DNA of 64,000 nucleotides, taken from Heterostelium multicystogenum. Its lineage: Eukaryota; Evosea; Eumycetozoa; Acytosteliales; Acytosteliaceae. The position numbers and the translations under genes are program-made. Under the pieces are notes generated by a model. It was not told where the DNA came from. It ran no database searches and saw nothing but the letters and a program-made list of their open reading frames with translations. Location of the stretch: the NCBI GenBank assembly GCA_003667245.1, contig RCNN01000025.1, positions 1 to 64,000 of the forward strand, written 5' to 3'. Below are positions 7,732 through 61,174 of the stretch, piece after piece. Each line of letters begins with the position of its first letter. Positions within the stretch are counted from its first letter, which is position 1.

Positions 7732-7991
7732 CCCTCCAATTTCAAATGTCTCTGCAACACTTTGGCAAGAATTGATGTTGTTGTCTTTGTTCATGTTTTA
7801 TGCCAAATTCTCAAATCCAAGATCTCATTTATTTTTTTTAAAATTAAATTTGTTTTTTGTTGTTGTTTTTGAATTTTTTATATTCTCCTTTTTATGATAC
7901 CTTTTTAAAACATTGTGTTTTGCCCATCAACAGACAGACAAGCAAGTGATATCAATGATAAACTCTGTTTCTGTCGACGTAGACACTGCAG

Positions 7992-9651
7992 ATGATGTCT
8001 GTAAGCTTGTCAAGTCTACGGAATCATCTGTTTGCAGAGCAATCCGACCCAACTTCAGCATCGCCTTCTTCGTCACTGTCATCGACCTCATCAACTTCCA
8101 TTCTCATACAAGAATTCAACAGCAATCTAGTTCTTAGCGACCATGGCGATAGTCTGTACGAAGACGATCATTTTTTAGATACGATAAACAGTGGTTATTA
8201 TAGAGATATATCGTTGGCAACATTACCAATTGAGATCATTGATAAGATATTGCATCTATTGAACCAATCTACACTTTCTATACTTTCACTCGTATGTCGC
8301 CAATGGAACAAGATTATTAACGCATTGTGGCATACAGTTGATCTTTCAAAATCACATCATCACTTTACTCATCTGAGCACAAAGATAAAGCAGTCTATTC
8401 AAACTCTAAAGAGGACCAACAACAAATCAAACCCATACATTCAAGAAAATAACCAGGAACAGCATTCAGCAAAGAAGAAATCACTCACCTTGGAGTCGAT
8501 TGTCAATAATCTTATCTCTAATTATGGATTTCTTATACCCGGACTTGGTTCAGACAAGTCTCCACCTATATTTCGCACACACAATCGCAATCTATTGAAA
8601 TCAAAAGAAGCACAAAACAATATATCCAATCAGTTTGACATGCGCACCGAACAATTTTTTATTGACATTGCTAGGAGATACCAGAGAATTGAAGTTTTGG
8701 ACCTAAGTGGGTGCAGCGACATTAAAGATGGATTCAATCGCCTTGCTCATCGAGCGTTTTTCATCAACTCTAGTAAAGTTAGTAACACGTCGTTGCAAGT
8801 CAGAGACTATAACAGATGAGGCATTTGCGCAGGCCATTCGAAAAGCTACCAAGCTCAAGTGTCTCTGTGTCGGAGAAATGCCCAATATTGGTGACTTAAC
8901 ACTCCAAGTAATATGTGAATCGAATCCGCATATCGAATCACTTGGTCTTGGTCGTTGCTTCAAGATAACAGACAAATCCATCATGAAAAATGGCGAAAAC
9001 TCCTTCTATTCGCTCGAAGCTTAAAGTTGTGGGACTTAATCACCTTTCGCACCTTTCAGATGCTGCAATTAGACACCTTGGAACCAGTTGCCAGAACCTG
9101 GTGATATTCAGCATCAGTAATTTCAAAAATATCATGTCCGAAACAATGGCAACCATTTTCATGGCTTGTCCTCATCTTGGATCGATTGATGTTGGTGGTT
9201 GCGAACACACTGACGATACAGCACTTGAAGCAATCTCCATTAACTGTCATGAACTATTCCAATTGAATATCAGTCGTTGTAAGAAGCTGACGGTCTATTC
9301 GCTCAACCAAGTGATCGCTCGATGTAAGCAACTCCGCATATTGTTTCTCTCAAAAACCTCAGTCGACGACGACTGTCTCTTGAATGCAATCGAAAATTTA
9401 AATTTAGAAATACTGTATGCCATTAATTGTTGTAAGTAAACTCACAAATTGATCTCATTCGAATGCCCCATACTAATTTCCATCCAGCCAACCTATCAGA
9501 CAGGATTGTGCAATCTTTATTTAAACTTGGCAATCAAAAACTCAGCAAGATGATCATTAACCTTGGACAGTGTCCCAATATTTCACAATCATTAATTTCA
9601 ATTCTACAACATTTAACTAAATCAAATTCACCAAACCTACTGGATGAATAA
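7992..9651 (+). CDS. F-box / leucine-rich repeat protein (FBXL/AMN1-like)
   Basis: Likely substrate receptor of an SCF ubiquitin ligase. Starts MMSVSLSSLRNHLF with a Ser/Thr-rich leader. The F-box lies at about 8208-8350 (SLATLPIEIIDKILHLL ... LSLVCRQWNKIINALWHTV). Cysteine-containing LRRs follow: IEVLDLSGCSDI, IESLGLGRCFKITDKS, LGSIDVGGCEHTDDTAL, LFQLNISRCKKLTVYSL and LRILFLSKTSVDDDC. One-base frame changes sit near 8735 and 9010-9020. An intron at 9432-9487 (GTAAGT ... CATCCAG) joins INC to SNLSDRIVQSLF, and the protein ends NSPNLLDE at 9651. Family assignment is sound; the target is unknown. Confidence 0.8.
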
Positions 9652-10161: not shown

Positions 10162-13100
10162 ATGACCGACATAGACAATACCAATGTAGTGGATGATAAT
10201 ACATCCAGTACTATCCCAGTCAAAGGTGTTGAAGATATCAAACATGTATTGCTATCATCCAAGCTGACTCTTCAGCAAACCAATCAAATCCTCAAGTCTC
10301 CACTTAAGGATGAGTTCATTGTAACTTTTTATATTTTATTAACAACAACTGGTAAGCTCTTTCAATCCAACCAAATGGCAAATTACACTATGACTAACTG
10401 CTATATTTATAATAGATTTACATTCAACCACCAAAGTATTATTCTTGGTTGGATGTTTTGAAAACAAGTTTTATGACCTTGCCAAGTCATTGCTTGAAAC
10501 TGAGAGATTCACTTTTGTTGAAAATCCTTAAGTGTATCAAGATTTTAGATTCCAAGCGTGCTCTAAAGGCACTGAAAAAGAAGTATGACGCTATGATTGC
10601 TAAAGAAGATGAGCGTCAAAAGAAATCCAGTTGGTTTCAGAAGAGTATTTCAAGAAGAAAGCTTTAGAGTCTGAAAAGAATAAAAAGCCTGATGGAAATA
10701 ACAACAACGACAACAACAACAACAACAATCTTGAAAATGTAAAAGTAGTCGAGGAAAAGAAAATTGTTCAAGACAAAAAGAAAGTAGGAACTAAGAAAAA
10801 TACTAAAAAGCCAAAGGTCAAGTGTGAGGCAGTGGTAGAGAGAGACCCTCAAGATCAGAAGCGTATTGATAAGAAAGAGCGTGAGGAAAAGTTTCAAAAA
10901 AATGTTTTGAGCGTTCTAAGTCCAACATGGAACGTAAAATACAAGAGTTAGAGCAATTATATTGCACAGCTTCTTTATGTGGAAGTGTCTCACGTATATT
11001 TAAGAACTGGTTCAAGACCATCCCACCAAAGACTCTCGAATATTTTGCTTTGGGTCAGCCAAAGGACACTTGGAAGGAGTTGGCTGATCTTCTTCATTTG
11101 GCCCCATCGGACTTCCAGATTCCATGGTTCCTTGAGTTTATGTTTGGCAAGCCAGCACCAGAGGGAACATCCGCACGTGACTTTGATGATGCAAAATTGC
11201 GATCAGAAGCTGGTGAAGAAGTCAACTATGTTCAATTGTTAGAGAAGCATCGTCCACCTTACAGCTTCTTGCGTAAACGTTTGACAGCTGAACAATTAAA
11301 TCCATTGAAGATGCAAATCGCACAATACGAAGATATTAATTTGGTACTCTGGTGGTTCCACGAGTTCAAAGATGTCAAGGGAATTAACAAGTTAATTGTC
11401 GACCGTGTAAATACTGTTGAGTTAACTCTTGCCTATGGAACATTGATTGAAAAGACAATGTCTTTAACAGAAGACAGCAACCCAGCAATGAAACCAGTCT
11501 TTTCCTCATTGCTCAAAGCCACTCTTACCAAGTTGACCAAATTTGCAACTAGATTCTCTCTTCCTCCACCAATTGCAGTATTTGGTGATCGTTCTGGTTC
11601 AATGGATATTGCCATTAGATTGGCAACCATTATTGGATATCTTGTATCTAATCTTTCAGAAGGATCTAAATTGTCATTCTTTAATAATGAAGACATGGAG
11701 GCCCCAGTCCCACCCTCCTCCATTGGACAGCTATTCAAGCTGACCACTCTTGTTACTGCAGAAGGTGGTACTGCCCCTGCAATTTCACTCAAACCATACC
11801 TCGACCAAAAGAAACCATTGAAATATGTTGTTGTAGTAACCGATGAGGAAGAGAATGAGAGTGTAGACAATATGAGTTTCGCAGCAATGTTTAACAAATA
11901 TCGTCTCGAAGTGGCCCCGAATGCAAGCCAGTATTCGTATCTTTCTTACGTGCAAATGCCAAAGGTTACATGGTCGCTGCTTTGAAGAAGTTTGACATAG
12001 AACCAATACAAATTGTATTGGATAGATCAAAGCCAGATGTTACTAAAATTGACCAAATGCTAACTGCTCTCTCTTGTGAGTCACCTTTGTTCAAGAGTAT
12101 GTTCCCTCGCCTATGATTTTATGATACACAAAGAACTAACCAATGATCATTTATTTATAGCTCAACTTGAATTATTAACCAAAGTATTTACTTTGTTTGA
12201 TAATAAATTCTTTGCCAAATTTCTATCAGAGCACAAGAAGAGTCTCTTTGGATACTCTTTCAACTCTGAGATTTTGATTATGATTCTTCAGAATCTATGC
12301 AAATTCTACTTGAAGAAGTTGCCCACCGATGAAAGCTACTCCTATTTCAAGGCCCGTGTCTTCAATGAGTCGAACTGCCTCCAACTTATCACCGAGAACT
12401 TGAAGCAGCTCTCAGTAGTCTCCAAGGAGTGTGAGTTGAATTCTCTTTCGTCAATTGTCGAAGAATCAACAAAGACTTTCAACTCACTTCAACGTCTTCA
12501 GTCGGTGGAGTTCCTTGATAAACTCCTCAATACCTTTGACAAGGAGCTTTTGTCCAGACCATCCGATGTTGCCGCTGCAAATAGAATTCTCGATGTAGAA
12601 GAAGATTTGGCTGGCAATAGCAACGATTCAAATACCGACAACCCAACAATGGAGGACGTTTTAGAGTTCAAAGATAAACTATTAAGTGGTGAGCTCACAA
12701 TCCCTTATGCAGTCCAGATGTTAAAGAGTAACTTTGTAAAGGACAAGTTTATCCCCGTGTATATTATGTTGTTAAATTCTATAGATTTATCATCCAAAGT
12801 AAAGATCAATGTGCTCTGTGCAGCATTTGAGTGTAAGCAATATGCTTTTGCTCAACTTATTCTTTACAATAAGAAATATGGTTTCAAAGAGGTCTCAAAG
12901 GCAATCAAAATATTGGACTCTGCTCGTATGATCAGACAGTTAGAGAAGAAGCTAGCTAAATGCAAGCTTAACCATGAACAAAGATTAGAGAGACTGAAAA
13001 AAAGTGTCCGAAGAATTCATTATGAAGAAAGAGGCACAGAAGAATGACGGAAACAACAACAATGTAGAAAAGACTGAAAAATCAACAACAACAACTGCAA

Positions 13101-16100
13101 CTACTCCAACAGAGAAACCAGAAACAAAGACAGTTACCGCAGTTAAAGGTAAAGGTAAAGGAAAAGGTAAAGGAAAAGGAAAAGGAAAGAAGGGAAAGAA
13201 AGGAGACAGTGGAGATGAGGAGAAAAAGAAATTCAAAGAAAAGTTAAAGTCTGGCGACCTCACCCCATTTGAAAAGAGACAAAGAGAAAAGATATTTGAG
13301 TCCAATTATGAGACCTCTATCAAATCAATGGAAACAAAGATTGCTCAAATGAAGGCCAATGCATCAGGTGGAAGCTTGTCAGGTAACATCATCAAGATGT
13401 TCAAGAGATGGTTGAAGACATTCCCAGAGAAGACTCTTGAATACTTTGCCTTGGGACAGCCAAAGGAAGTATGGCGTGAAATGGCTGATCTGCTCCATCT
13501 TTCTTCAAAGGATTTCCAGGTAGAATGGTTCCTTCCAAGTTGTTACAACAAACCACATACCGGTGAGTCCGTGAATGCATTTGCTCCAACCGATCACTCT
13601 GAAGATCAGCTGAAGCAGCTTATTATCAAGTACAAACCTTCCTACTCCTATATTAGAAAGCGTATCGACCCATCCACAATGACAGATGAACTTAGATTGA
13701 TTATCGCCAACTATGAGGATTTATCCATTGTACTTTGGTGGTACCACGAATTAGCTAGTTTCGATGTGGATAATTGCATTGCTCGTCGTCTTGCAAACAA
13801 CGAGTTGGGTTCAATTTCACTTGGTACACTTTTGGAAAGAGCAATCCATTTCCAACAACAAGGAATTCCATTATTTAGAGATATTCTTCCAATTATCCGT
13901 AACGCCTTCTCGGTCTTCTCTAGAAGAATCGCATTGCCGCCACCTTTGATGACACTGGGTGATGCATCCAACTCGATGGATATTGCAATTAAGATATCAA
14001 CTATCATTTCGTCATTGGTTACCTCCTTGACCGACAAAGCATCTCTTAGATTCTTTAATCATGCACCAATTTGGGCTCCTCTTGACCCAACATCACTAAC
14101 CGATGTCTTCAATGTCGCTAATATTATTCAAGGATCTGGTTCGACCTCACCAGCCGCTGGTCTGTACCCTGTGTTTGAAAGTGGTCAAGTTCTTCGTTAT
14201 TTAGTTTTGGTAACAGACGAAGAGGAGAACTCTAACTAACAAAAACTATAACTTTTTAAAGTTATACCAGGAGTATATTTCCAAGATAGCACCCAACTGC
14301 AAATTGGTGTTTGTATCTTTCTTACGTCCTAACGAAGAAGGACAAATGACAGCTCAACTTAAAGAGGCTGGAATCAACCCACTCCAATTTTGCTTAGATA
14401 AGAATCGTCCCGATGTAACCAAGATTGATGATTTAATCACAACTCTCTCCTGCCAAAGTGAAAGCTTTACCAACCAAATGGAAGCATTTGAGTTGGTTAT
14501 CAAGATTCTTGGTGAAAAGTATTTCTATAGCTATGTCAACAGTGATAAATACTTTGTAGAATCGTATACATTCGAAACTTTGGTCCATATCCTCGAGGTA
14601 TTGGCCAAATTGTTGAAAGCTCCTTAATGGAGGACAAAAACAATGAAGAGCTTGTTGAAAAGTTGATGAATCTCACCAATAAGCGTAGTATGATTTCAAT
14701 TATCACTGAAGTGATTAACAAAATCCAGAGTTGCAATGGTGCCGACCAATATGGACAGCTACTTGAATCAGTTTAATAAGATCAATGACCTCGTGACATC
14801 CTCCAAGTCTGATTTGGAAATTTTCCAAATGTTTGACTCGATAATCAATGAAATCAAATCAAATACCAATATTTTCAAAACCAACTCTGAGATCATGGTT
14901 ATTAAGGAGAAGCATGAGGTTGCCCAAAAACAATAACAACTCCAAAGAGATCTATTAAGGTCGAGAAAGTAAAATATGAAAGAGAATATGGAACCTTGAC
15001 AGAATATGATGTCAATATTTTATACTCTTATATTCATGATCTGGAGACTTTGAAGAATTGCGCATTGGTTTCGAAAACTTGGAGAAAATGTACAATGAAT
15101 CCTCAACATTGGACTAGATTTATGAATGTTAAAGATATTCGTAAACTTGACTTGGTGTTTGTTGTCGATGACACCGGTTCAATGGGAGGTGAGATTCCAA
15201 GGTGAAGCAAGAGATCCAAAACATTGTAAATGATATCGTATCAATAGGTTCCATTGAAATTCGTGTTGCTATGGTGTTCTACAACGACCACACTATACAT
15301 ACTGATTATTCCAAATCTGTATGCAAAGTATTTAAGTTCACCAGTGATATCCCACAACTTCGTCGAGATTTGATTCTGTTTCTGTACATGGTGGTGCCGA
15401 CCATCCAGAAGCAATGGCAGATGGATTCTATGAAGTCACAAAATTGGATTTCTCAAAAGGATCAACCAAAGTATGCATTGTTATTGGTGATGCACCACCT
15501 CATGGTTTCGGCGGATCTGGTGATTCTTTCCCACAAGGATGTCCATGTGGACACGATTTAATTGCTTCTGTGCGTCAATTAGTTCAGCGTGGAGTGACAT
15601 TCTACACAGTGATGTGTCGTGGTGACAGCCAAACCTTTGAAACAATGAGTGCAATTGCTGAACTCTCAGAGGGTAAGATTTGTTTTACTTAAGAACGCTT
15701 CTGAGTTAACTGATATCATTACAGGTAGTGCTAAGGCATCTCTTCTCCTTGACTCAATTGCTGAAGAAGTAATCAAGGAAATCGAAATGTGGCAAATTCA
15801 AGATGCCTCATATTGCCAAGGAAGAAGCAATCTATCGTGCTTCATATTCGCTCAGATCTCGTGGAATTAAAGTACCCAAAATCAAAAATGCCATGTCCGA
15901 TTCTCAAAACTGACTACACTAAGGTGCTATTTTCCAGTCAATCATGAAATCGGATACGCATTGCTGATTACATCGTGAATCATGCTAGATTGAATGGTTC
16001 CACCATCAATCCGCAAAGAAAGTAAAGAGTGTTACCAAAACACCAACTGCTTCAAAATACGGAGCAAGTAGAACTAATCACCATAGATCACGTAAGAAAG

Positions 16101-16183
16101 ATTGCCAAAAAGAATCACTTAATATAAATATAAAGATTAATCTAATCAATGAATGTCTCGAATTGATACGCTTTACAATTTAA
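10162..16183 (+). CDS. Giant tandem TROVE-vWA protein with F-box and third vWA
   Basis: Two homologous halves plus a distinct tail, roughly 1,950 residues. Half 1: helical N-module (10162-10560), Lys/Asn linker, TROVE-like domain (10980-11550; LEYFALGQPKDTWKELADLLHL), vWA (11560-11985; GDRSGSMD, an intact D-x-S-x-S metal site; VVVVTDEEE), C-module (12161-12640). Half 2: N-module (12652-13000), Lys-Gly repeat (13145-13205), TROVE-like (13380-13920; LEYFALGQPKEVWREMADLL), vWA (13930-14600; GDASNSMD). Tail: F-box-like segment (14990-15125; LETLKNCALVSKTWRKC) and a vWA (15142-15700; VFVVDDTGSMGGE). Introns at 10352-10415 and 12097-12160. The frame at 12161-13047 runs from half 1 into half 2 without a stop, so the halves are fused; joining the F-box/vWA tail relies on crossing one indel at about 14930. 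TROVE-vWA proteins (Ro60 family) bind noncoding RNA. Many one-base indels. A separate gene starting near 14740-14990 remains possible. Confidence 0.65.
13145..13205 (+). repeat. Lys-Gly coding microsatellite
   Basis: A run of GGTAAA/GGAAAA codon pairs encodes alternating Lys and Gly inside the linker of the second TROVE-vWA half. It is low complexity and likely a basic, RNA-binding or nuclear-targeting linker (inference). Confidence 0.7.
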
Positions 16184-36857: not shown

Positions 36858-36947
36858 CCGACTTTAACTCAAGTGGTAGAGTGTTTGACTGTAGTTTGTA
36901 TCACAAGAGATATCAAAAGGTTGCTAGTTCGAGTCTGGCAAGTCGGA
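36858..36947 (+). tRNA. tRNA-Tyr (GTA), with intron
   Basis: Acceptor CCGACTT pairs with AAGTCGG (36940-36946), discriminator A 36947. D-arm ACTCAAGTGGTAGAGT, anticodon stem TTTGA/TCAAA, anticodon GTA, T-arm GCTAG-TTCGAGT-CTGGC. A 17-nt intron (TTTGTATCACAAGAGAT) sits one base 3' of the anticodon, the canonical place; eukaryotic tRNA-Tyr genes commonly carry one. The A and B boxes are intact. Confidence 0.93.
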
Positions 36948-38917: not shown

Positions 38918-40813
38918 ATGAATTATATTCTATTTTCAAAAGTATTTAAAAATCATCTGATCAGGAAGCATATATTTGATCAGGTGAAAGATGTTCATAA
39001 ATCTCTAGGCGATCTGACATATAGTTGGGCAGACCTACAGCAGAGATTTCCTTTGTTGATCATGTATAACTATATCAACCCTTTTAAAGAGTTTTTGAAA
39101 CGCTATCAACAAAATAGACAAAAAGATATACTCAGCTATTCAATCATTTATTATGAATCAATCAGAGTTGCAATTAGATTTGCACGATTCGAAATACTCA
39201 GGTCACTGCTCAATGATTTCAAATTAAAACCTGCTCACTATGTCAAGCCAAGTATACTGTTAAAGGAAGCTGCTTATTCTGGAAGTTTTGAAATGCTCCA
39301 GTTCGTATATCAACTTGATTCCATTGATTGGTCCTGTCAGGATTTAGTTTGAAGCATTCAATATATCACCAGTTAGCTTAGATCTTGATTCTGTCAAATG
39401 GATCTATGAAAAACTTAAAGTAGCATCAACAACTACAACAACAAACAATCGATCTTATAAAAGTCTATGAATCAACAGCAATCAAGGAAATATTAATATG
39501 TTTCAATGGCTGATAGACTCCAATTATATATAGATAGCTATCATTCTATCATTCAGCTTGCACTGGAGAATGGAAATCTTTCATTCTTAAATTATTTAGT
39601 TGAAAATCATTCAAACTTGATCGATGTTGATAATATTACCATTGATTTATGCAATAAATTCTGCGAGAATTTACATAAAATCGAAAATGCATTGGAGACT
39701 ATCAAATGGGTACATCAACACTTCAAGAATGTCATTTGTTCAACTTCTTTAATGGATAGTGCAATACAAAACAACAATTTAGAATTGATAAAGTGGCTCC
39801 ACGATAATCGTAGTGAAGGTTATTCAGCTGAAGGTCTGGATAGTTTTTGCTCTATCGAAATTTTAGAATGGCTTAAGAGAAATCGTAATGAATGGATCTT
39901 AACAGAGAAAGCAATGGAGAGAGCAATGGATAGAGCCGGATTCAGTAGTTTAGAGAGAATTAAATGGTTTCATGAAAATACGACTCAAGGATGTACTTTT
40001 CTAGCAATGGAGAATGCTGCATTCTCAAATAAGTTTGATTCAGTAAAGTTCTTACATTCGCATAGAACAGAAGGGTGCACGAGCAGGGCAATGGACAGAG
40101 CTGCGAGATCAAATAATCTGGAGATGGTACAGTGGTTTCATTCGAATAGAACTGAAGGGTGCACAAGTGAAGCAATGAACCTAGCATGCCAAAACAACAA
40201 CTTAGAGATGGTGAAATGGCTGAATGAGAATCGATCTGAAAAAGGGACCTATATTTCCATTGTGTACTCAATCATCAATAACAATTTTGAAATGTTTAAA
40301 TACCTCATTGAAGACGTTTTTGCTAAAATCACTCCCTCAAATGAGCCTTTCATCTTCGATTGCCCCAAGACAACAAAGAAAGCAATGTCAAAGTATTTTC
40401 TTCCGATTGTTCAAAGAAAATTTCTTTGCCAGTGAAAGTAAAACGCGATTATTACACAACATCAAAAATCCTCGAAATTGCTGGAGAGAATGATTGCATA
40501 GAATTAGTAAAATACTACTTTGAAGTAGGTTTATTAGGTTTAGACAAATTCGATGATTTGGATATGCCACTGTTTTATGCTACATTGTGTGATAGCTTGG
40601 ACATCGTCAAATATTATGTCAACAAAAAGAAAAGAGAAATGGAAAACATCACATTTCTTTTATGCACTTGATATGTGTAATTTCAACATTGCTGACTTCT
40701 TTTTAGACAGTTCATCAGTTTTCATTAACCTCGAAGATGAAAATATTCCCGAAGAAAAATCTAAAATATTATATTTTGAAAACCATTCATATTTTCTTTA
40801 TAACAATAAATAA
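38918..40813 (+). CDS. Dictyostelid ankyrin-like repeat protein
   Basis: ATG 38918: MNYILFSKVFKNHLIRKHIF. The N-terminal module matches the gene at 57.4 kb (F-x-K/N-F-x-N-x-L-x-x-x-I-F-x-Q-V-K-x-V/I-H). Degenerate ankyrin-type repeats of about 27-33 residues follow, with units such as AMDRAARSNNLEMVQWFHSN then RTEGCTSEAM and LELIKWLHDNRSEG. Frame changes at about 39350, 39470, 40420 and 40655; the last frame ends NHSYFLYNNK at 40813. Function unknown; repeat scaffold. The gene sits between two tRNA genes and downstream of a retroelement relic. Confidence 0.65.
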
Positions 40814-41068: not shown

Positions 41069-41141
41069 CGATCAATGTGGGGCTCGAACCCACGACCTGC
41101 AGCTTAGAAGGCTGCCGCTCTTCCAACTGAGCTAATCGACC
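41069..41141 (-). tRNA. tRNA-Arg (TCT), no intron
   Basis: On the minus strand the acceptor GGTCGAT (41141-41135) pairs with ATTGATC (41076-41070) with two G-T pairs; D-arm TAGCTCAGTTGGAAGAGC; anticodon arm GCAGC-CTTCTAA-GCTGC giving TCT; T-arm GTGGG-TTCGAGC-CCCAC. Discriminator G. A 73-nt standard cloverleaf that decodes AGA. Confidence 0.93.
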
Positions 41142-57380: not shown

Positions 57381-59111
57381 TTATGATGAATAGTTTCTAA
57401 TCAATTGATGCATTTCTTCACGACCTTTCTTGTAGGTTGCTGTTAGAAATTCCTCAAATTTAACCAACAAATCTTTTGGAAATGTAATAGTGCTAAATAG
57501 CCACTCGATAAAACTGACTTTGTTTAAACGGATGGCTTCGTAGAGAGAGCTAATTTCAAATACATTCAGTTGACCCGACAATCTTCTATCGTTTACCCAT
57601 TTGATTAATTCTCGATTTCCAGTCATGATTGCCAAGTTCAAAGAGTTATGTGATAATTTTGCGTTTAGTGGGTCTTCATCATACATCCATTTGACCAATT
57701 CCTGGTTATTAAAAGTTATTGCTTTGTCAATTAAATAAGTTGCTTCTTCAGGTCTAATTTCCTCTGTATATTTTGAAATTAGCCATTTGATCATTTCATT
57801 ATTCTTTTTTGGGATAGCATTTTTAATGGCCTCGAAACTAAAACCTTCTGTTCTATTCTGATGTAACCATTGAAGAAGTTCAAAGTTGTTAGAACGAGCA
57901 GTAAAGTCTTGAGCGTCAGTGCTGCAACCTTCAGTTCTGTTGGCATGAAGCCACTTCAAAACATCAGTATGTCCATTATATGCTGCTTGGTCAAATCCGT
58001 CAGTGGTCATGCCTGCAGTGGTGTTACGATGCAACCACTTAAGAGCTTCAAGCCTTCCGTAGGCTGCTGCACAGTCCATTGTCGCCATTGTCGAGCATTT
58101 CAATTGTAAATTCTTTTGGAGCCAATCCAATATCTCCACATTTCCAATGCATGCTGCCACGTCAAGTGCTTCATCAGTGACCTTCTTGTAGTCATGATCA
58201 AAGAGCCATTGAAGGATTTCGACATTGTTATTTCCAACAACCATGTCAATCACAGGACTCTTGCTTTCTCGAATATTATTGTCGTACAAATATTTCAAAA
58301 TTTCAAAGTTGTTTGGAGTGTTAGCTCCAATGGCATGGTCAAACAATGGAATGACAGCGTTCGATCTACTCTTGTCACCCTCTGTAATCTTAGGGTTGTC
58401 ACTCTCGAGAAGGTATTGAATAACATGCTTATGACCCTTGCTTATTGCGAAACGATGCATCATACTAGTCTCCAAAAAATCGGGATAGTTAGTCTCTATC
58501 CACTTGATCATCTCTAAATTACCAACTGTGGCTGCAACATCAAGTAGATTAGAAAAACGAAGTCCCATGATTTTTCCTCTGGGTGACTTGTTTTTGTTGT
58601 ACAAGTCGCAACAGTATTGCAATACTTTAATGTTATTCGAGAGAACTGCACCAAATCTAGCCAATTGATAGTCCCAATGACAGGTGTGATTCAAACTATC
58701 AAGGTATTCGATGATGTCTGTATTGCCAGAGAAAGCAGCATAATAAAATAGATCCTCTTGCATCGACCTCAACTGACTGACAACTTGCGGAGTAAATGTA
58801 TCGACCAGGAATTTAAGTAAGTCTAATCTTTTCGCCAAGACTGCTTTGATCATACATCTATAGGCAGTACCATCCTCTACCAAAGGCTCAATGTGAAAGG
58901 TATCAAAGAATTCTTTAATCTCTTTGAAATAGCCATATTGAACCAGTATTTCTAAATAAAGAGTGTTCAAATCTTGCCAATTGCATACTCTTACTTGGAT
59001 TTGCCGATGAATATTCTTTACTTGTGCAAAGATTAATTGGTTCAAAGGTTTATTATTAAATATATCTAGAAACAATTCTTTTTTCATTGTTATATATTGT
59101 GTGATGATCAT
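57381..59111 (-). CDS. Dictyostelid ankyrin-like repeat protein, intact
   Basis: A single uninterrupted frame of 576 codons from ATG 59111 (MIITQYITMKKELFLDIFNN; an internal ATG at MKKELF is the alternative start). N-terminal module as in the gene at 38.9 kb, with NQLIFAQVKNIHRQIQ and a W-x-DL motif (CNWQDLNTLYLEI). At least eleven ankyrin-type repeats: TDIIEYLDSLNHTC, LEMIKWIETNYPDF, VEILQWLFDHDYKK, VEILDWLQKNLQLKC, LEALKWLHRNTTAGMTTDGF, TDVLKWLHANRTEGC, FELLQWLHQNRTEGF. It ends MHQLIRNYSS. Intactness contrasts with nearly all other long genes here. Likely an interaction scaffold; partner unknown. Confidence 0.8.
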   Translation of the reverse strand: MIITQYITMKKELFLDIFNNKPLNQLIFAQVKNIHRQIQVRVCNWQDLNTLYLEILVQYGYFKEIKEFFDTFHIEPLVEDGTAYRCMIKAVLAKRLDLLKFLVDTFTPQVVSQLRSMQEDLFYYAAFSGNTDIIEYLDSLNHTCHWDYQLARFGAVLSNNIKVLQYCCDLYNKNKSPRGKIMGLRFSNLLDVAATVGNLEMIKWIETNYPDFLETSMMHRFAISKGHKHVIQYLLESDNPKITEGDKSRSNAVIPLFDHAIGANTPNNFEILKYLYDNNIRESKSPVIDMVVGNNNVEILQWLFDHDYKKVTDEALDVAACIGNVEILDWLQKNLQLKCSTMATMDCAAAYGRLEALKWLHRNTTAGMTTDGFDQAAYNGHTDVLKWLHANRTEGCSTDAQDFTARSNNFELLQWLHQNRTEGFSFEAIKNAIPKKNNEMIKWLISKYTEEIRPEEATYLIDKAITFNNQELVKWMYDEDPLNAKLSHNSLNLAIMTGNRELIKWVNDRRLSGQLNVFEISSLYEAIRLNKVSFIEWLFSTITFPKDLLVKFEEFLTATYKKGREEMHQLIRNYSS

Positions 59112-61174
59112 TTTGAGTGAGATAAATCATAGTTGATTTTTGCGAGATTTTCAGTTGCATTTGCCAAATTTCACCTATGAATAAAAAGAAATTTTATGGA
59201 AAATAAATATCTGGAAACAAAGATCTTTGATTTTTTACTATATGATCTTGATATTCAAAAATAGCCAATATGAAGCATTTATTATGAATCGTTACTTTAG
59301 TTTAATGCATTAATAATATGTCTATGTGAATTATTATAATTATTAGTTGTTCTTATAACCATGCATGGTAGTTGATTGAATTGTAATAATAATATTAATT
59401 AGCAGTGTTGACATATTATATCAAAAGTTATTCATGCTTGTAATTCATATTGGCGTACTCTGACTACGGAACATTCTGTAGGAATTTGGATGTTCTCTTC
59501 TTGAGTTTAAGAGGCTCTGTGCATTCAGAGTTTGAATGCTTAGTAGAGTAGGAAATCGAAATTATTTCTTATCTCCGGAAGAAATAATTTCGATCGATGT
59601 TATAACTCTATAGTATGTTTTTTTGTAAGTATGAATAGATAAAGTGAATAAATATACAATGAAATATTATGATACGCACTTTATGTTTTAAGATCTTATT
59701 GAGGAGGTCGATTTAAATATCACAGTTGCAAAGGAAATCTATGGGAACCTTAAACCTATGATAGACTGACTCATATTCATTGATTGATATAGTGAGAAAC
59801 CCAAACAATCCATATGTTGACGAAATACCAAAAATGAATGCTGGAAACTAACTTGTAACTTGCATAGTCAAATAAGATACAGTGATGCTGAGCAAAATGA
59901 AACTCCCATAAACGATAGTGATTCCACAAGATGATCCTCGAAGGAAATAAGAAATTGGATGTTTATAACAATAAGATGACTGTTGTTGTACCATTTGATT
60001 GTGCCATTTGATGATCCATTAATGTTGGTCTTTTCTTTTATTATTATTTTGTATTATTGTTTTATTATTATTGTTTATTATTTTTATTATTAATGTATTT
60101 ATTTATTTATATTGTATTTACTTTAACTCAGGTATATTAAAAAATATATTCATAGACACCAATAAAACAAACAAGAAATGATGTGTAGTCTCTGAGCATT
60201 TATGACATAATAATATTTGTTAATAGTTTAAGATCCATAATCCATACAATTGTTATTTTGCCATTGATCAATGTAGTAATCCAATTCCATGCACTTTATA
60301 GATTGAACTCCGCAAAGTTTCCCAAATTTCAAATGTACAAAAGCAAATACAAACCAATGAAAGAATCGTTCACATATTTGTTAACAGAAGAGGAAGGGGA
60401 GGAAGAGGAGGAATGAATGAATAATCCACACAACAGGTGATTAGAAAAAAAACAAGAAAAAGAATTAAAAAAATATTGAATTAGTTTTTGTTCTTGTTGA
60501 CGAAAGAATTATACTAATTAATATATCATTTTGATCTTTGATTGATCCTTTGGAAGTGTAAATTGGTTATTCATGAATAACAATGATAATTATCTATTAT
60601 TCTTATTATTATTTGATAAAAGATAACATTATTATACTATTATAATTTTATTATTATCTAATGAATATAATGTTTATATTTGTTATCTGTTCATTTCTAT
60701 GTGTGATTTATTATTGTTTGAATCGGATGCATAAGCTCTGTATAAATAAGCTCCTATTCAGTTTTTTATAAAAATTGAATTATACAGGTGTTCTTTCCTT
60801 TTTTGTATTTTTCTTTTTTTGTACACCTTCATTCACATCCTAATTAAGGTTCATTGGACCTTTTTGAAAATCCCAATTATTAATTTAGAAAAATCAAATA
60901 AATTTGATTAGTGTCCTGCAAAGATTCAAAAGAATAATAAATGTTAAATACTAATTTGGATGGGATTCCATTATTATCAAAAAATACTAAAATAGAAACT
61001 CACTGTTCTTCATTGAATAATTGGTAATCCATTAATAGTTATAATGATTTATTTAGAAGTTGATGTTATAATATTATTCTTTTAAAAACTTTCTTTTCTT
61101 TTGTTGGAATGTTATTAGTAATAATGGAATTAAGGAAAAAACTAAACGAATTTATACAATTATAATAATTAAAC
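59112..61174. other. Intergenic 2.1 kb with one structured, less AT-rich block
   Basis: Mostly AT-rich with TTATTATT microsatellites (60040-60120, 60590-60660). The block 59440-59600 is visibly richer in G+C and contains three consecutive hairpins. No coding frame seen. Confidence 0.5.
59469..59594. repeat. Hairpin array including a perfect 16-bp stem
   Basis: GAACAT/ATGTTC (59469-59474 and 59490-59495), GCATTC/GAATGC (59521-59526 and 59534-59539; alternative CTCTG/CAGAG overlaps), and ATCGAAATTATTTCTT (59555-59570) with its exact complement AAGAAATAATTTCGAT (59579-59594) around loop ATCTCCGG. A candidate noncoding RNA or a strong terminator-like or cruciform element. Confidence 0.6.

Follow-up and report, generated by a model that had tools for sequence, protein, structure and literature searches.

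Ro60, a known autoantigen, serves as an RNA chaperone, with a positively charged cavity for single-stranded RNA ends and an outer face on which Y RNA lies. In excerpted text of PMC11277228, the Ro60 ring is said to bind small and misfolded RNA, the vWA is presented as a protein-ligand domain in many proteins, and Ro60 seemingly has no direct interaction with Ro52/TRIM21. The latter is an E3 ubiquitin ligase named beside Ro60 in the autoantigen literature, and the two are not fused, unlike the parts of the gene that we describe here. This gene lies within the first 64,000 nucleotides of contig RCNN01000025.1 of Heterostelium multicystogenum (GenBank assembly GCA_003667245.1), and this whole stretch is called the window below. 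As read from its translation, it almost certainly encodes a single protein of about 1900 amino acids with two ring/vWA units, an F-box, and a third vWA.

Like Ro60/Rsr (TROVE plus vWA; PDB IDs: 1YVP, 2NVO, 9KOP), each unit is predicted to be a helical ring closed by a C-terminal vWA with a metal ion-dependent adhesion site (MIDAS), and in predicted models of relatives the alignment covers most of the unit. In contrast to Ro60/Rsr, the window gene has no Pfam TROVE match in the pieces scanned, is duplicated, and adds the F-box and the extra vWA; a long linker rich in Lys and additional helices at the C-terminal end further mark the dictyostelid units.

Layout and reading of the gene

The source assembly comprises 29.7 Mb in 528 contigs, and the gene was read by six-frame translation, in which its protein is spread over three frames. 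A preliminary description of this DNA had given it as one printed frame ending at 16183, but up to 15910 it actually falls into 15 pieces. Two GT-AG introns interrupt it there, alongside 13 further frame changes, and at least one more frame change precedes the C-terminal motif. These pieces, which cover 10162-15910, were joined by hand, guided by the alignment of the two halves and with both introns removed, giving a read-through of 1879 residues (759 in unit 1, 792 in unit 2, and 328 in the tail). The stop codon at 16127 was placed by a C-terminal motif common to two relatives, P0003 and P0010. Dictyostelid proteins are the closest named relatives of the gene, foremost that of Acytostelium subglobosum (P0001), to which unit 1 is 57% identical. 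Here, the MIDAS pattern DxSxS...T...D is present in both window units, as had been claimed of the two vWA metal sites, and residues D470, S472, S474, T531, and D555 (P0001 numbering) are invariant in alignment A2 (n = 15). All positions are collected in Table 1.

Table 1. Features of the two-unit gene, with their positions in the window
Feature	Position	Strand	Remarks
Whole coding region, ATG to stop	10162..16127	+	in pieces owing to frame breaks
Intron 1, GT-AG, 64 nt, G+C 0.31	10352..10415	+	removal restores unit 1/unit 2 alignment
Intron 2, GT-AG, 64 nt	12097..12160	+	removal restores unit 1/unit 2 alignment; matches frame start at 12161 in the preliminary description
Unit 1: predicted Ro60-like helical ring, vWA, dictyostelid C-terminal helices	10162..12564	+	read-through, predicted fold of P0001
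Unit 1 MIDAS, DRSGS	11587..11601	+	motif; then TDEEEN at 11839-11856
Unit 1-unit 2 junction	12559..12669	+	within single open frame 12160-13002
Unit 2: second predicted Ro60-like unit	12565..14933	+	clade with unit 2 of P0010 and P0003 at 100/99
Unit 2 Lys/Gly-rich basic loop	13145..13204	+	in the P0001 model, equivalent linker between two long helices, low confidence
Unit 2 MIDAS, DASNS	13961..13975	+	motif; then TDEEEN at 14213-14230
F-box-like motif	14990..15121	+	PF12937, 27.4 bits (cut-off 24.3)
Tail vWA, VWA_4 type, DDTGS at 15167-15181	15140..15798	+	spread over several frames
Conserved C-terminal motif ending NHLI*, with stop	16080..16127	+	resembles ends of P0003 and P0010

With at least 13 frame breaks, the gene could be taken for a decaying pseudogene. 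However, homopolymers of at least four bases are found close to 9 of the 14 examined break sites (4.2 expected, P 0.007), and conserved genes of the same assembly are broken in like manner. RPB2 on contig C187 is matched in two overlapping stretches, which cover the query without a gap (2-110, then 108-373). A similar split affects the HSP70 copies on C480, C511, and C209, while one HSP70 gene (C212) is whole. Because of the excess near homopolymers and the like breakage of RPB2 and HSP70, we conclude that the frame breaks look like assembly indels rather than decay, and any "split gene" in this assembly calls for caution. Moreover, in pieces that were hand-chosen to be open, no stop codon needed to be read through, each lying at a frame change, and the MIDAS is kept in both units. 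On the like breaks in HSP70 and RPB2 and the nearness to homopolymers, the pseudogene reading was rejected, and we regard it as extremely improbable.

Duplication and fusion among dictyostelids

Along their entire length, the two halves are paralogous to each other. Their local alignment scored 1097, whereas the highest score among 200 shuffles was 71, and BLASTP gave 36% identity over 689 columns. Elsewhere in the genome no further copy of the unit was found besides the two in the window, except for two matches at E 0.08. Among relatives, P0010 (EukProt gene4295-5370_t, 1905 aa) is an intact predicted protein that, like the window gene, carries unit 1, unit 2, F-box, and vWA in this order in one chain, with 38-40% identity to unit 1 and 49% to unit 2, whereas unlike the window gene its F-box falls just under the cut-off (21.7 vs 24.3 bits). 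The existence of P0010 means that the layout is real, but not unique, and so the earlier statement that no described protein with this order was known no longer holds at the level of predicted proteins. In T. lacteum, P0003 has unit 2, F-box, and vWA, and a separate unit 1-type protein (P0012) is encoded on another contig, while for P0001 and P. violaceum P0002 the annotation shows one unit only, of the unit 1 type.

In a tree of 42 rows, one clade (100/99) holds unit 1 of the window and of P0010 together with P0001, P0002, and P0012, a second (100/99) holds unit 2 of the window and of P0010 together with P0003, and all eight dictyostelid units group at 100/100. These separate clades indicate that the duplication predates the split of the sampled dictyostelids, and the intragenic duplication proposed beforehand is thus borne out by shuffled alignment, BLASTP, and tree alike. 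Judged from the protein sequences, fused and single-unit forms both exist among present-day dictyostelids. Moreover, the N-terminal end of P0003 weakly resembles the C-terminal end of unit 1 (matching P0012 at E 2.6e-5 and unit 1 at 4.8e-5 in a seven-sequence BLASTP search with composition correction off), a likeness that hints at a formerly fused gene.

Since this assembly contains many indels and the annotations of P0001, P0002, and P0012 show one unit each, we considered whether two adjacent genes (unit 1, and unit 2 with F-box and vWA) only seem fused because a stop codon or spacer was lost to assembly error. Against this, the frame across the unit 1-unit 2 junction is unbroken for 281 codons, so that the C-module of the first half does run into the N-module of the second, as the preliminary description had it; none of 2000 base shuffles of the stretch stayed open. 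The G+C content at this junction is coding-like (0.41 at 12500-12750), with flanks at 0.20 and 0.25. Fused P0010, moreover, exists in another predicted proteome, and the N-terminal end of P0003 holds the weak unit 1-like remnant described above. Altogether, we find two separate genes very unlikely. At the unit 2-F-box junction, the G+C content is intermediate (0.33 at 14770-15000) and the frame changes; the joining is less clear there in the window, and the case for it relies on P0003, P0010, and a further relative, P0011.

The tail and E3 fusions across the family

The F-box claimed for the tail was recovered with PF12937 (cut-off 24.3 bits) in P0003 (24.4 bits) and P0011 (31.1 bits) as well as in the window. 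For the tail vWA, the VWA_4 model is over its cut-off in the intact relatives P0010, P0003, and P0011. A query of unit 2 plus tail found a VwkA-type alpha-kinase protein, P0021 (E 1.6e-14), and as P0021 holds VWA_4, the tail vWA is presumably the matching part. While P0021 has VWA_4 and an alpha-kinase domain, no alpha-kinase domain was found in the window pieces scanned (to 15689) or in P0010, P0003, and P0011. The VwkA type assigned earlier therefore stands as kinship to the vWA of P0021, though not as an alpha-kinase architecture.

A profile search for relatives gave 127, with at least 120 listed, and only candidates sharing most words were scored; all counts of relatives are lower bounds, taken over clusters at 90% identity that are not independent events. 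Among the matches listed, members of the family occur in lancelet, molluscs, starfish, crinoid, rotifers, Myxococcales, and Klosneuvirus, and in the amoebae Acanthamoeba, Balamuthia, Filamoeba, and Pelomyxa, with an annelid member found in a separate search. Scans of genome and viral contigs added one close bacterial relative (L008, 62%), four distant bacterial loci, and five distant loci in viral collections, while a plasmid search gave no relative of P0013. One rotifer member (P0034) is already labelled "TROVE domain-containing" in one public source, so the relation to Ro60 has partly been seen before by annotation.

We observed an E3 module in 20 of the 131 member clusters, comprising 15 RING (13 C-terminal, with P0014 and P0114 N-terminal), 2 U-box (P0052 and P0053), and 3 F-box cases (P0003, P0010, and P0011). 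The link to ubiquitin ligation that had been suggested from the F-box is strengthened by this recurrence of RING, U-box, and F-box fusions. The Pfam U-box model matched 3 of 70 members in all at E<=0.01, and P0081, which by eye ends in a truncated U-box, gave no match at E<=0.001 and was left out of the E3 count. The fewest changes of E3 state on the tree are 6 over 39 labelled rows. Like the window gene, the Acanthamoeba "Ubox domain containing protein" P0053 and the RING relatives (P0038 and others) join a ring/vWA unit to an E3 module, yet they have a single unit, and a C-terminal RING or U-box replaces the F-box and vWA. Rarer fusions include CUE (1 of 70 and 2 of 61 members) and Death_3 (1 of 70). 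P0011 may be a sister of the dictyostelid units (p-AU 0.461).

The single-unit form also occurs in giant viruses, namely as P0082 of Klosneuvirus and A0A1V0SE27 of Indivirus, and gene exchange with protist hosts is a possible source of these copies; the three giant-virus rows of the tree do not group with the dictyostelid units. For the bacterial loci, TROVE was found in none of the genomes of four of the five (0/4) and in none of a phylum sample that included one of them (0/5), while among 199 genomes of the phylum of another bacterial locus, 10 gave a TROVE match and 5 a match to the family profile. We also noticed a distant Planctomycetes family (L009:5392-7008, L011:5515-7008, L013:5572-7116, L031, and L032), one member of which is in a viral-collection contig, with a helical-looking part, a vWA, and DKSGSM-like and TDEEEN/TDEGEN motifs; L009, L011, and L013 were under Pfam cut-offs.

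Ro60 likeness and the proposed role

In the predicted folds of relatives, a HEAT-like helical ring with a C-terminal vWA was found, and from these models we consider a Ro60-like fold of the units very probable. Among the relatives, the vWA_Ro60 model (PF25045) was found at E<=0.01 in 3 of 131 without its cut-off being reached (best 26.0 vs 27.7 bits, in P0120; 15.6 in P0001), and in a genome scan it gave one match elsewhere, on C197, also under the cut-off. An NCBIfam scan of seven proteins gave matches that were all far under cut-offs, and a PDB sequence search with a piece of unit 2 returned weak matches only, mostly to a low-complexity Lys/Gly stretch. As for basic residues, 22 columns of alignment A4 hold conserved K/R/H at >=85%, and a net-positive Lys-rich linker is present in all eight dictyostelid units. 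Stretches rich in RG or RGG are typical of RNA-binding proteins, and 18 of 130 members have RG-rich stretches at the N-terminus, compared with 4 of 685 other windows. Such RG/RGG-rich starts include mollusc, lancelet, crinoid, and rotifer members (P0005, P0016, P0027-P0031, P0033, P0049, P0050, and others).

A gene on contig C73 of the source genome, at 92925-93914 (L001), is the sole match found there to the TROVE profile, has an RG-rich start, and is presumably TEP1-like. Two pieces of this gene match Pfam TROVE strongly, unlike the scanned pieces of the window gene, and it was not retrieved by a genome search with the unit 2 piece. A canonical Ro60 was not encountered elsewhere in the genome, the C73 gene being the one TROVE match, though as the search went exon by exon, absence is not demonstrated.

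Taken overall, the best explanation in our view, and one that we hold at about even chances, is an intracellular substrate receptor of the Skp1-Cul1-F-box (SCF) type with Ro60-like rings. The F-box would dock on Skp1-Cul1 and make the protein a substrate-receptor subunit of an SCF-type E3, and cargo would be bound by the two rings and the vWA domains. This cargo would most plausibly be small RNA that is misfolded or foreign, or the proteins of its ribonucleoprotein (RNP), and the proteins of the bound particle would be ubiquitylated. The E3 link rests on the recurrent fusion in the family, while Skp1 binding, ubiquitylation, and cargo are what we infer. An RNP-directed ligase would result from combining the F-box/vWA cooperation reported in Dictyostelium (PMC10539598) with the binding of small and misfolded RNA by the Ro60 ring (PMC11277228). 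Of these parts, the E3 role seems likely, and RNA/RNP cargo has not quite an even chance.

Several observations weigh against this reading. The structures are models of relatives and not of the window protein; the structure prediction called for in the preliminary description was made on relatives only, and gave the Ro60-like ring plus vWA fold. The TROVE profile search, named beforehand as able to refute the Ro60 likeness, found Pfam TROVE (PF05731) in none of the eight scanned pieces of the gene at E<=10 and in none of the 131 relatives at E<=0.01, so that the link of the units to Ro60 is carried by the predicted fold of relatives together with a weak vWA-profile match, and not by the TROVE profile. 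In a profile-profile comparison, 30 members set against 8 planctomycete TROVE proteins (drawn from 11 loci; L019 and L028, with no open frame across the middle, and the short L026 were left out) matched in the vWA part only (E 0.0012, probability 19%, control 0.17). In the tail, the F-box of P0010 is the one under the cut-off, and the model of P0011 has low confidence at residues 643-725, F-box included; the F-box was not among the VIA rows for P0011, a result that is uninformative because the upper rows are taken up by the tail vWA. Moreover, the first piece of the window tail vWA gave 12.9 bits, against a cut-off of 27, and no match was obtained with either of the two further pieces scanned. 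P0001, P0002, and P0012 are single-unit proteins without an F-box, and the unit 2 protein of T. lacteum is encoded on a different contig from P0012; such relatives in three named dictyostelids mean that fusion is not needed everywhere. Lastly, no E3 module was detected in 111 of the 131 members, many of which are from short metagenome contigs.

Alternatively, the rings may no longer handle RNA, and the protein would be a protein-protein scaffold, with vWA and MIDAS serving as the recognition arm of an E3, for example in development. Consistent with this are the intact MIDAS in both units, an RNA cavity without sequence support, the protein-ligand role of many vWA domains (excerpts of PMC11277228), and the cooperation in Dictyostelium development of the F-box protein FbxwD with the vWA protein Vwa1 (reported in PMC10539598). 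However, a whole ring fold is predicted, beyond the vWA alone, and some animal and other members have the RG-rich N-termini, and thus we regard this as rather unlikely, although it is the strongest rival to the RNA-directed receptor.

Overlapping with that receptor is an immune or anti-element sensor, in which the rings would bind giant-virus or transposon RNA/RNP, the E3 would signal or destroy, and the giant-virus copies would be captured decoys. The relatives in Klosneuvirus (P0082) and Indivirus (BFVD, TM-score 0.82 by target length), the single Death_3 match, and the occurrence of TROVE and vWA in a figure legend of a fungal cell death review (PMC12881547) are in its favor. On the other hand, the three giant-virus rows lie apart from the dictyostelid units, and no recognised defence genes stand beside bacterial L008, as judged from its open reading frame list without a defence-library scan. 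In a paper on vWA conflict systems (PMC7159879), TROVE occurs only as an unrelated word in the references. We consider such a sensor quite unlikely.

Returning to the SCF receptor, we suggest, tentatively and with some doubt, that an unnamed, widespread Ro60-like family may be the recognition arm of RNA/RNP-directed ubiquitin ligases, joined repeatedly to RING, U-box, or F-box, and that in dictyostelids a doubling of its unit would have produced an SCF receptor with two rings, which would detect RNP that is defective or foreign and bring about ubiquitylation of the RNP proteins. A search of mostly open literature (titles and abstract starts, among the matches listed) gave no Ro60-like ring fused to a ubiquitin-ligase module. 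The ring/vWA-E3 fusions point to an unnamed protein family in animals that include lancelets, molluscs, and starfish, and suggest that RNA handling and protein disposal are connected in a way not yet explored; with such fusions, RNA surveillance by ubiquitylation would become directly testable in amoebae.

As to the remainder of the window, Rfam families, Y RNA included, gave only two tRNA genes, at 36858-36947 (+) and 41069-41141 (-), and nothing beside the bacterial relative L008. Upstream of the two-unit gene, at 7983-9650, lies a gene split over several frames. It has an F-box (PF12937, E 4.4e-10) together with what look by eye like leucine-rich repeats. Long open frames at 39497-40435 (+) and 57381-59126 (-) hold repeats of the WLH/NRTEGC type that appear ankyrin-like by eye.
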